Shown here piece after piece: positions 2,700 to 45,806 of a DNA stretch of 49,462 bases. The notes under the pieces were generated by a model, which saw only the letters and a list, made by a program, of their open reading frames with translations, searched no databases and was not told where the DNA came from. Position 1 is the first letter of the stretch, and each line of letters opens with the position of its first letter. Source of the stretch: Candidatus Sulfotelmatobacter sp. (lineage in GTDB: Bacteria; Acidobacteriota; Terriglobia; Terriglobales; Acidobacteriaceae); NCBI GenBank assembly GCA_030039195.1, contig JASHQK010000457.1:1-49462 (forward strand), given 5' to 3'. The position numbers and the translations under genes are program-made.

Positions 2700-3734
2700 T
2701 CAGGCAGTGCCTCGAACCGGCTGGCCGCGGGTAACAGACCAAACCAGGAGTCGCGCCAACGCATTCACCACGATCGTAACCAGAAACAGGGCCAGTCCGA
2801 TCTCGATCAGAGCTGACAGATACACATCGCCGGTAGCCTCGCTGAATTCATTGGCCAGCACGCTGGCCATGGTGTAGCCGGGAGCCAGCAGCGATTGGAC
2901 GATGTGCGGGCTGTTCCCGATTACCATGGTGACCGCCATGGTTTCGCCCAGCGCGCGGCCGAGTCCTAGAATGATCGCGCCCACGATTCCGGCGCGGGCA
3001 TTTCTCAGCACGCCGATGCGAATCATCTCCCAGCGCGTCGCGCCCAAAGCCAGCACGGCCTCGCGCTGATGCTGCGGCACCACCGCCAGGACTTCCCGGG
3101 TGATCGAAGAGATGATGGGGATGATCATGATGGCGAGAATGATGCCTGCGGCGAGCATGGAGTATCCGAAGAAGGGGCCGGTAAACAATCCCGTCCAGCC
3201 TAGCGTCTTCGAGAGAAGCGGCGCGACGTATTGAATCAGGATCGGCACCAGCACGAACATCGCCCATAACCCGTAAATCACGCTGGGGATGGCGGCCAGC
3301 AATTCCACGAAGAACGACAGCGGCCCGCGGAACTTCTTGGGGCACATCTCGGTGGTGAATACGGCTACGCCGACGGAAAGCGGGACGGCGATGATCAGTG
3401 CCACCAGCGATGAAACCAGAGTGCCGTAGATGAAGGGCAACGCGCCGAACTGCTCGCTGACCGGATCCCAATCGCTGGCGGCAAAGAACTTCCAGCCGAA
3501 AGCGTGCCAGGAGAGCCCGGAACGCAGCACCAATTCGTAGACGATGAGAGCGAGTACACCGAGAACGGCGAATCCGCTGGCGGTGATGATGATGGCAAAA
3601 ATGCGATCGGGAACTTCGCCCGCCGAAACCCGCATCAGGCGGAGTGGAACTACTGCCGGTACGGACTTAAGCTTCGCTCCCTCCACAGGTTGTGCGCCGG
3701 GCATATCGGGCCGTGGGAATGCGGGGTTGGCCAT
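2700..3734 (-). CDS. pstC: Phosphate ABC transporter permease PstC
   Basis: MANPAFPRPDMPGAQP... permease; LALGATRWEMIRIGVLRNARAGIVGAIILGLGRALGETMAVTMVIGN is typical of PstC. GGAGG SD upstream. Confidence 0.96.
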   Translation of the reverse strand: MANPAFPRPDMPGAQPVEGAKLKSVPAVVPLRLMRVSAGEVPDRIFAIIITASGFAVLGVLALIVYELVLRSGLSWHAFGWKFFAASDWDPVSEQFGALPFIYGTLVSSLVALIIAVPLSVGVAVFTTEMCPKKFRGPLSFFVELLAAIPSVIYGLWAMFVLVPILIQYVAPLLSKTLGWTGLFTGPFFGYSMLAAGIILAIMIIPIISSITREVLAVVPQHQREAVLALGATRWEMIRIGVLRNARAGIVGAIILGLGRALGETMAVTMVIGNSPHIVQSLLAPGYTMASVLANEFSEATGDVYLSALIEIGLALFLVTIVVNALARLLVWSVTRGQPVRGTA

Positions 3735-3745
3735 TCGCCTCCAAG

Positions 3746-3776
3746 TTAACAGAGGCGTGTTACAAAATTGTTAAAA
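3746..3776 (-). promoter_or_regulatory. Candidate Pho box plus -10 for pstC
   Basis: On the minus strand TTTTAAC-AATT-TTGTAAC (3776-3759) is a 7-4-7 direct repeat with 11-bp period, then 7 nt, then TGTTAA (3751-3746). Same layout as the site upstream of pstS. Confidence 0.6.
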
Positions 3777-3785
3777 GACATGCCC

Positions 3786-3812
3786 GGTACTGTCCTAGTT
3801 TAGGACAGTACC
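3786..3812. repeat. 27-bp perfect palindrome with 3-nt centre, flanked by 8-bp direct repeats
   Basis: ggtactgtccta-gtt-taggacagtacc; flanks acatgccc at 3778-3785 and acatgccc at 3813-3820. Confidence 0.9.
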
Positions 3813-3921
3813 ACATGCCCACGCAATTCGCTTCGCGAAGGGCTGCGCAAGCCCCCACGCAAACGCGGTGACGAGTGGGTAGATCGCATGTACACTGTGA
3901 GGCTCATCCTCGTTCTGCTCC

Positions 3922-5451
3922 ATGCCCACCTTCGCTGCCGTCGACATCGGTTCGAATTCGGTTCGCTTGAAGATTGCGCGGCTGCAAGCGGGTCGCCTGC
4001 ACCCTCTGCATGAAGATCGCGAGGTCACACGTCTCGGCGAGGGCGTGTTTCGCTCGGGATTTCTGACGCCGGAGTCGATGGCAGAGACGATCAAGGTGCT
4101 GCGCCGTTTCCATCGCAGTGCGCAACAGATCGGCATCGACAGCGTCCGGGCTGTGGCGACCAGCGCGTTGCGTGACGCGCGCAATTCCCAAGCCTTTCAG
4201 GAATGGGTGCGCTCGGCCACGGGATGGAGGGTTGAGATCATTTCAGGCATGGAAGAAGCGCGGCTGATTCATCTCGGCCTGGTTTCGATAGCTCGAGTGG
4301 ATCGCGCGACGACGCTGATGATCGACTTAGGCGGCGGCAGCTGCGAGCTGACCGTAACGCGGGACGGACACATTCGCGACGCGGTGAGTTTACCGCTGGG
4401 CGCGGTTCGGCTTACGGATGAATTTTTGCGCCATGATCCGTCGCGCAAAGGGGAACTCAAGCGTCTCGGCGGCTTCGTCGCGCGCGAGGTGAACCGGATT
4501 GCGAACCGCATTGGAGCAGCCCGGGTGAAAAACGTGATTGCAACCTCCGGCACGGCGGCGGCTCTGGCCACGGCGGCCGCGCACCTCCGTCGCAGAAAAA
4601 CGCGCAACCGCCATCTCGTAACACGCGTGGAAATGGCTCGCCTGACGAAGCGGCTGGCTCGGCTGCCGGTTGCGGAACGGCGCGAGATCCAAGGCATCGG
4701 GCCGCGGCGCGCCGAGATTATTGTGGCTGGCGCTACCGTCTATCGCGAATTGCTGGAACGTCTCCACCTGACGGGCTTCCGCTATTCCCCGCTGGGGTTG
4801 AGAGACGGAATTCTCGCCCAGATGGCGGCGGATTACGATCGCAGCACCCGCTCCGGGCGCCAGATCGAATCCGAACGCTGGGAATCGATTCTGAACGCCG
4901 TTGATCACTACCATGTGGAACGCAAGCATGCGCTCGATGTGCGCGAGTCCGCCATGCTGCTGTTTGCCCGCCTGCGCTCCCTGCACCGCCTGCCACCGGA
5001 ATACCGCGAGTGGCTCTCGGCGGCGGCGATGCTGTATGAAGTCGGCGACTACGTGAATCGCAACGGCCATCATCGCCACACGCACTACATCATTTCCAAT
5101 TCTGAAATTCTCGGCTACACCCCGCAGCAGCGCCGGCTCATCGCCGCCATCGCGCGCTATCTGGGAAAATCACGGCCCACGGTGGAAGACGGCCCCATCA
5201 AATTGATCGATCCTGCCGACCGGGTACCGGTGCAGAAAGCGATTCTGCTGCTGCGTTTGGCCCGTGCCTTGAATCTCGGGCGGAGCCGCGCCGTGCGCCA
5301 GGTGCGCATTGGAATGCGCTCAGCGGAAGTCATGTTGACCCTGATTCCGCGGCGCAACCTGGGAGTGGATCTGGAATTGTGGGCGATCGAAAAAGAGCGG
5401 GACTATTTCCTGGAAGTCTTCGGGCGCGAACTTTCCACCGCAGTCTCGTGA
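3922..5451 (+). CDS. ppx: Exopolyphosphatase / Ppx-GppA family phosphatase with C-terminal HD-like domain
   Basis: MPTFAAVDIGSNSVRLKIARL..., DLGGGSCELTV, TSGTAAAL motifs of Ppx/GppA; C-terminal HHRHTHYIISNSEILGYTPQQRRLIAAIARYLGKSRP. Confidence 0.93.
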   Translation: MPTFAAVDIGSNSVRLKIARLQAGRLHPLHEDREVTRLGEGVFRSGFLTPESMAETIKVLRRFHRSAQQIGIDSVRAVATSALRDARNSQAFQEWVRSATGWRVEIISGMEEARLIHLGLVSIARVDRATTLMIDLGGGSCELTVTRDGHIRDAVSLPLGAVRLTDEFLRHDPSRKGELKRLGGFVAREVNRIANRIGAARVKNVIATSGTAAALATAAAHLRRRKTRNRHLVTRVEMARLTKRLARLPVAERREIQGIGPRRAEIIVAGATVYRELLERLHLTGFRYSPLGLRDGILAQMAADYDRSTRSGRQIESERWESILNAVDHYHVERKHALDVRESAMLLFARLRSLHRLPPEYREWLSAAAMLYEVGDYVNRNGHHRHTHYIISNSEILGYTPQQRRLIAAIARYLGKSRPTVEDGPIKLIDPADRVPVQKAILLLRLARALNLGRSRAVRQVRIGMRSAEVMLTLIPRRNLGVDLELWAIEKERDYFLEVFGRELSTAVS

Positions 5452-45300: not shown

Positions 45301-45806
45301 AGGACGAAACCATCACCACTGCCGGCATGATCGGCAATGTTCGCGTGCTCAAATCCAAGCGCGGCGACTTCTACGCGCAGGCCACGCTCGAAGATATGTC
45401 GGGATCCATCGACATGATCGTCTTTCCTGAGGCCTACAAGCGCATCGGCGACAAAGTCAAACTTGAAGTTCCTGTACTCGTGAAGGCCGGGGTCCGCATC
45501 GAAGAGGGCGCAAATCCCAAGATCACCGCCGCGGAAATCATTCCGCTCGAAGACGCTAAGATCCCGCTCCCGCGCGCCATCCGCATCCGCATTCCGCTCG
45601 AAACCTCGGCCGAGACAACCGTCGACGACCTGCACGCACTTTTTCTCGAGCGCAAAGGAGAAGCCAAGGTATTGTTCGACGTGGAACGCCAGGGCGATTT
45701 CATGGTCGTGATGGAAGCGGACGGATATAATGTCCTTCCAGATCGCAATTTCATCGCTCGTGTCGAGCAATTGTGCGGGCGCGGCAGCGTTCGCGTGATC
45801 AGCTGA
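42324..45806 (+). CDS. dnaE: DNA polymerase III alpha subunit
   Basis: PHP [25 protein letters not shown]; palm [25 protein letters not shown]...[52 protein letters not shown]; OB-fold C-terminus. Confidence 0.99.
   Translation: [1160 protein letters not shown]

Follow-up and report, generated by a model that had tools for sequence, protein, structure and literature searches.

Background

The closest described counterpart of the structure reported here is the nearly precise excision of Tn10, reportedly described by Ross, Swan and Kleckner in 1979, in which the body of the transposon is lost and both outer tips are kept together with the target duplication, leaving a short palindromic remnant. 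The Tn10 remnants are about 50 bp long and arise through a single pair of internal direct repeats, each 23-24 bp long, and the inverted repeats are thought to bring the two ends together. Copy-choice work by d'Alencon et al. is summarised in PMC12524634. A second described process depends on the IS-excision enhancer (IEE), which excises members of the IS1, IS3 and IS30 families and may delete them only in part (PMC9330008, PMC9397093), its usual outcome being simple excision or flanking deletions. REP/REPIN sequences and MITEs are also short palindromic DNA of mobile origin, and they are multi-copy within a genome.

Here we analyse a 27-bp palindrome located in a 49,462-bp stretch of DNA (the window) from Candidatus Sulfotelmatobacter sp. 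Taken as a whole, the palindrome is very probably a stump, itself probably inert, left by an IS1-like insertion that suffered an internal deletion. It resembles the Tn10 remnants in its overall structure, but the parent in this case is IS1-like, the remnants of the same class measure 22-47 bp and their junctions show only 0-4 nt of microhomology. In contrast to REP/REPIN sequences and MITEs, these relics occur about once per genome and have individual centres and intact duplications.

A palindrome with duplicated flanks between pstC and ppx

The preliminary description of this DNA had reported a perfect 12+12 bp palindrome flanked by exact 8-bp direct repeats in the pstC-ppx intergenic region. 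The arrangement, ACATGCCC-GGTACTGTCCTA-GTT-TAGGACAGTACC-ACATGCCC at 3778-3820, was confirmed letter by letter, and the domains of the neighbouring genes agree with the stated position. The relevant features of the window are the following:

2700-3734, minus strand: pstC-like phosphate permease gene (PF00528, BPD_transp_1, 6e-16), member of a pst-like cluster
3757-3777, minus strand: Pho-box-like sequence GTGTTACAAAATTGTTAAAAG of the pst promoter, conserved in congeners; context outside the relic, directly abutting the left duplication copy
3778-3785, no strand: left copy of the 8-bp target-site duplication, ACATGCCC, an exact match to 3813-3820 with the same spacing in sister relics
3786-3797, plus strand: left tip of an IS1-like element, 12 nt, GGTACTGTCCTA, a perfect match to the outermost 12 nt of the two terminal inverted repeats (TIRs) of the L164 element
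3798-3812, plus strand: right tip of an IS1-like element, 15 nt, GTTTAGGACAGTACC, including the GTT spacer, a perfect match to the 15 nt that close the L164 right end
3813-3820, no strand: right copy of the duplication, ACATGCCC, an exact match to the left copy
3922-5451, plus strand: ppx, Ppx/GppA phosphatase gene (PF02541, 5e-64)

The inverted repeat consists of 12+12 nt with 100% complementarity, separated by a 3-nt spacer (GTT, 3798-3800) and with TAGGACAGTACC at 3801-3812. By chance, a palindrome of 12+12 nt whose spacer measures 0-10 nt and whose borders carry an exact 8-bp direct repeat is expected about 5e-7 times per window, and one was observed; no such arrangement appeared in 20 shuffles of the window.

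IS1-like parent elements in the same genus

Full-length elements of 1.7-3 kb, bounded by TIRs GGTAGTGTCCTAA or GGTACTGTCCTAA, with exact 8-bp duplications and encoding an IS1-type transposase, were found in the same genus:

L129 (2552 bp), L130 (2312 bp) and L131 (2046 bp): full-length congener elements, exact 8-bp duplications
L141 (2266 bp), L142 (1741 bp), L147 (2918 bp) and L149 (2294 bp): full-length congener elements, exact 8-bp duplications
L164 (1655 bp, 553-2207): element with duplication CAAAAAAC, whose ends are of the rarer type GGTACTGTCCTAA also seen in the window

The L164 element shares the C5 TIR variant with the window, and its plus-strand end reads ...CAACGCAAGTTTAGGACAGTACC. 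Its right end also supplies the centre GTT of the window palindrome. This comparison of ends shows that the palindrome corresponds, at the level of sequence, to the outer tips of an IS1-like element, 12 nt from the left end and 15 nt from the right end, with the target duplication flanking them; thus, the GTT spacer is part of the right end.

A parent transposase matched PF03400 (DDE_Tnp_IS1) with 36.5 bits, above the cut-off of 24.1, and parent transposases scored 66.9 and 85 bits against the NCBIfam IS1 equivalog NF033558, below its cut-off of 100, and therefore we use the label IS1-like. The transposase domain, the TIR start GGT, the target duplication of 8-9 bp and the IS1/IS1595 zinc domain found in one parent are shared with the IS1 family. 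In contrast, the best-preserved parent contains a single long ORF, and the elements are larger than the approximately 0.77 kb of IS1, at least some of them carrying passenger genes. The full-length L131 element carries a gene for a P63C-domain protein, L129 has an extra ORF of 376 aa with no Pfam match, and in both L129 and L130 the transposase is followed by a comparable short ORF of roughly 114-127 aa.

Relatives of the transposase are present in 37 of the 45 congener genomes. The host genome contains transposase debris on contig C655, and no complete GGTACTGTCC element was found in its 724-contig assembly. A 112-bp element with GGTAGTGTCCTAAATT ends and the exact duplication GCCTCCCG was also observed in the host genome (G000:C671:232-343; L265), being either MITE-like or a partly deleted IS.

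A class of tip-only relics

The relaxed motif GGTNNTGTCCTANNNTAGGACANNACC, searched with the centre fixed at 3 nt, was found as one copy each in 9 of the 45 congeners, at unrelated places. Exact 8-bp flanking repeats were observed in the window (ACATGCCC), L004 (GGCCCGAC), L005 (AATCTCCG) and L006 (CGTTCTCT), and L002 showed a 7/8 match. The copies of the relaxed motif mostly have the duplicated flanks that the preliminary description had proposed to look for. When the arms GGTAGTGTCC/GGACACTACC were searched with a free centre of 0-30 nt, 13 places were detected in 11 congeners, and a control with the reversed pattern gave no match.

A similar pattern occurs in 75 stretches of the genome_contigs collection, belonging to Acidobacteriota, Verrucomicrobia, 'Deltaproteobacteria', Planctomycetes, Chloroflexi, Alphaproteobacteria and others. 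Once duplicates were removed, there were 76 distinct relics, which measure 22-47 bp and have exact arms of 10 bp. An 8- or 9-bp direct repeat with at most one mismatch flanks 53 of them (36 exact 8-bp, 3 exact 9-bp and 14 with one mismatch); one further relic shows a 6/8 match, and 22 have no repeat. Swapping flanks between relics gave 0.13 near-matches per 76. There are 62 distinct sequences among the 76; the centres vary from relic to relic and read on into the TIR. Many soil and water bacteria carry comparable stumps with this kind of landing scar. A literature search, mainly of open-access sources, yielded no description of such a natural series of near-precise-excision remnants.

In about 1.2 Mb scanned de novo, drawn mostly from three congeners and including the window, a single short relic was recovered, that of the window itself, indicating a density well under one per Mb. 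The left and right flanks of four relics share no Pfam domain, and no sign of interrupted genes was seen there.

That such palindromes are insertions is shown by a 34-bp relic of the congener G216 (L018), flanked by the 9-bp repeat GGTTGGGTG, for which the uninterrupted site exists in the sister species G361. When the joined G216 flanks, with one copy of the repeat, were compared with this empty site, there were 0 mismatches in 49 positions on the left and 2 in 40 on the right, within loci that are about 83-85% identical. An empty site, which the preliminary description had proposed to look for in orthologous pstC-ppx gaps, was found for a sister relic and not at the window's own locus. At L018:1666-1697, about 30 bp (CTCTGTGTTCCCCTGTGCCCTCTGTGGTGAGTT) recur at many places across the genus as a dispersed repeat.

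Two other observations concern the insertion sites. In L005:1501-1557, L080:3986-4060, L167:22-818 and L168:968-3310, two different IS1-like elements or relics lie in tandem with one 8-bp duplication in common, in the order element-TSD-element-TSD (3 short cases against 0.1 expected), which suggests that the edge of a copy already in place is a preferred target of these elements. Moreover, in 6 of 106 relic flanks GTCAA precedes the duplication at a distance of exactly 12 nt, against 0.1 expected, and no flank has TTGAC in that orientation; this bias would fit insertion immediately upstream of a -35 box reading away from the element, or a target preference.

Proposed loss of the element body

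The earlier claim of an insertion with target duplication gains support from the existence of parent-type ISs, from the empty site of the sister relic and from the lack of conservation of the palindrome at orthologous loci (see below). Two forms of insertion were originally considered, the collapsed ends of an IS and a tiny palindrome that had transposed. The first is favoured over the second, since the centres vary between copies and have the appearance of truncated TIRs. We strongly infer that the body was deleted from an element that was formerly full length at the window site. According to this proposal, an IS1-like element of the GGTACTGTCCTAA subfamily landed in the gap that separates ppx from the Pho box of the pst operon and duplicated ACATGCCC; a near-complete internal deletion would later have taken its body, so that 12 nt from the left end came to adjoin 15 nt from the right. 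The deletion would most likely have proceeded via replication slippage or microhomology-mediated joining across the TIR hairpin in single-stranded DNA, and the end product would be an inert 27-bp palindromic stump with its target duplication intact.

Slippage as the mechanism of body loss is what we infer from the sizes and junctions of the relics. In the same 45 genomes, and with equally stringent arms, there are 13 places of 20-50 bp versus 2 of 52-112 bp, whereas random internal deletion would predict the longer class to be about twice as common. With lengths fixed, two TIR types show modestly more microhomology than uniform junctions would (P about 0.001-0.004), and a third type does not. 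Much of this signal is due to the 26-mer GGTAGTGTCCTAATTAGGACACTACC, with seven independent cases joined at AATT, a sequence that both element ends contain as a direct repeat. Both the concentration of sizes and the modest microhomology are predicted by slippage or short-homology joining across the TIR hairpin. The junction of the window relic has at most 1 nt of microhomology, and those of the relics in general are variable (0-4 nt), which does not fit a deletion between defined internal direct repeats; thus, the relics can be said to work like the Tn10 process and are not classed as an instance of it.

The sharp size peak at the tips is also compatible with a relic that was never full length at this site, if the transposase inserted a tiny unit of 22-47 bp, or if an abortive transposition joined the two ends at the target and the body was lost on insertion. 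The comparison of the G216 relic with the clean G361 site, in which no full-length stage was caught, points in the same direction, as do four 27-bp relics with a common GTT centre at different sites, although these recurrent 27-mers came from the search in which the centre was fixed at 3 nt. This origin appears rather unlikely for the window relic, since the 62 distinct sequences among 76 relics are unlike a multiplying unit, and intermediates of 111-760 bp with intact TSDs exist. In addition, two transposase subunits would need to bind ends of about 12 bp that nearly overlap. In its general form, i.e., that the tip-only units of 22-47 bp arise at transposition through an abortive or tips-only pathway of the IS1-like family and not by later decay, we regard the idea as improbable; if it were true, these units would be among the smallest transposase-inserted DNA units with a normal target duplication.

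As another alternative, the collapse might have been driven by an IEE-like primase-polymerase that cuts IS1-like elements back to their tips through end joining. AEP-TOTE-type primases, which we take as a tentative proxy for IEE, are encoded in 14 of the 45 congeners (proteins with this primase-polymerase domain in G228:C96, G302:C317, G274:C733 and others). Their presence is not associated with that of relics (5 of 17 versus 9 of 28 genomes by relic presence; Fisher p = 1), and no AEP-TOTE protein was found in the host assembly. Therefore, although the IEE-mediated excision reported for IS3, IS1 and IS30 family members includes partial IS deletions (PMC9330008), an enzyme-driven collapse is very unlikely.

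Orthologous loci and regulatory readings

The host genome (6.35 Mb, 724 contigs) contains the 27-mer as a single copy, and no exact copy was found elsewhere in the genome_contigs collection. Regarding the earlier suggestion that an inserted element should have other copies, the exact 27-mer has none, and it is the relaxed motif that recurs at unrelated positions.

In the majority of the 45 congener genomes, orthologous DNA is present near pstC or ppx. The palindrome was absent from all 29 congener loci read, the best match having at least 11 mismatches in 27 positions, and the palindrome and its flanks were thus not seen as one conserved unit. A Pho-box-like sequence within 5 mismatches of 21 positions was detected in 16 of these 29 loci, two of them with 1 mismatch. 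In the nearest relative, G274, identity extends up to 3777 and ends at the duplication; this locus is alignable only up to that position, and neither a full-length-IS allele nor a clean empty site was found for the window locus.

The preliminary description had also considered an operator or a terminator, and neither was borne out, given the lack of conservation at orthologous loci and of a T tract. A long perfect dyad in a divergent intergenic region, adjoining a Pho box, could well suggest the operator of a transcription factor for pstC and/or ppx. However, the congener loci read lack the palindrome even where they keep the adjacent Pho box, so a conserved operator is excluded, and the host genome has only one copy of the 27-mer. 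This explanation, which leaves the 8-bp flanking repeat and the sister relics at unrelated sites unaccounted for, is highly improbable. An intrinsic terminator or RNA hairpin has a practically negligible probability, since a perfect inverted repeat can form a stem but the T tract is missing on both strands, there is no Rfam match and the position is upstream of both divergent genes. From its non-conservation, the window relic is probably without function.

A MITE or REP family was considered as well and rejected, because it would require many near-identical copies and the host genome holds one.

Contrast with IS1 in E. coli

Short intergenic palindromes are easily mistaken for operators or terminators, and one class of them consists of transposon stumps, recognisable by their 8-bp direct repeat. 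As a class, these stumps record past insertions and provide a natural data set on IS loss in bacteria.

When joined tips of canonical IS1 were searched in 5,426 E. coli genomes with three queries, a single 38-bp case was found, on three related plasmids, and since it has no target duplication it is uninformative for empty sites. The concentration of sizes at the tips versus essentially one E. coli IS1 remnant lineage (near the queried lengths) constitutes a testable contrast, which should be taken as a lead and not as a measured rate, because BLAST with short queries would overlook joins that differ greatly in length, and E. coli genomes cover only recent time. In NZ_AP024522.1, the 38-bp joined IS1 tips (45363-45400; L267:1501-1538) lie beside the 3' part of a tRNA-Ser of chromosomal origin, and the plasmids are phage-like.
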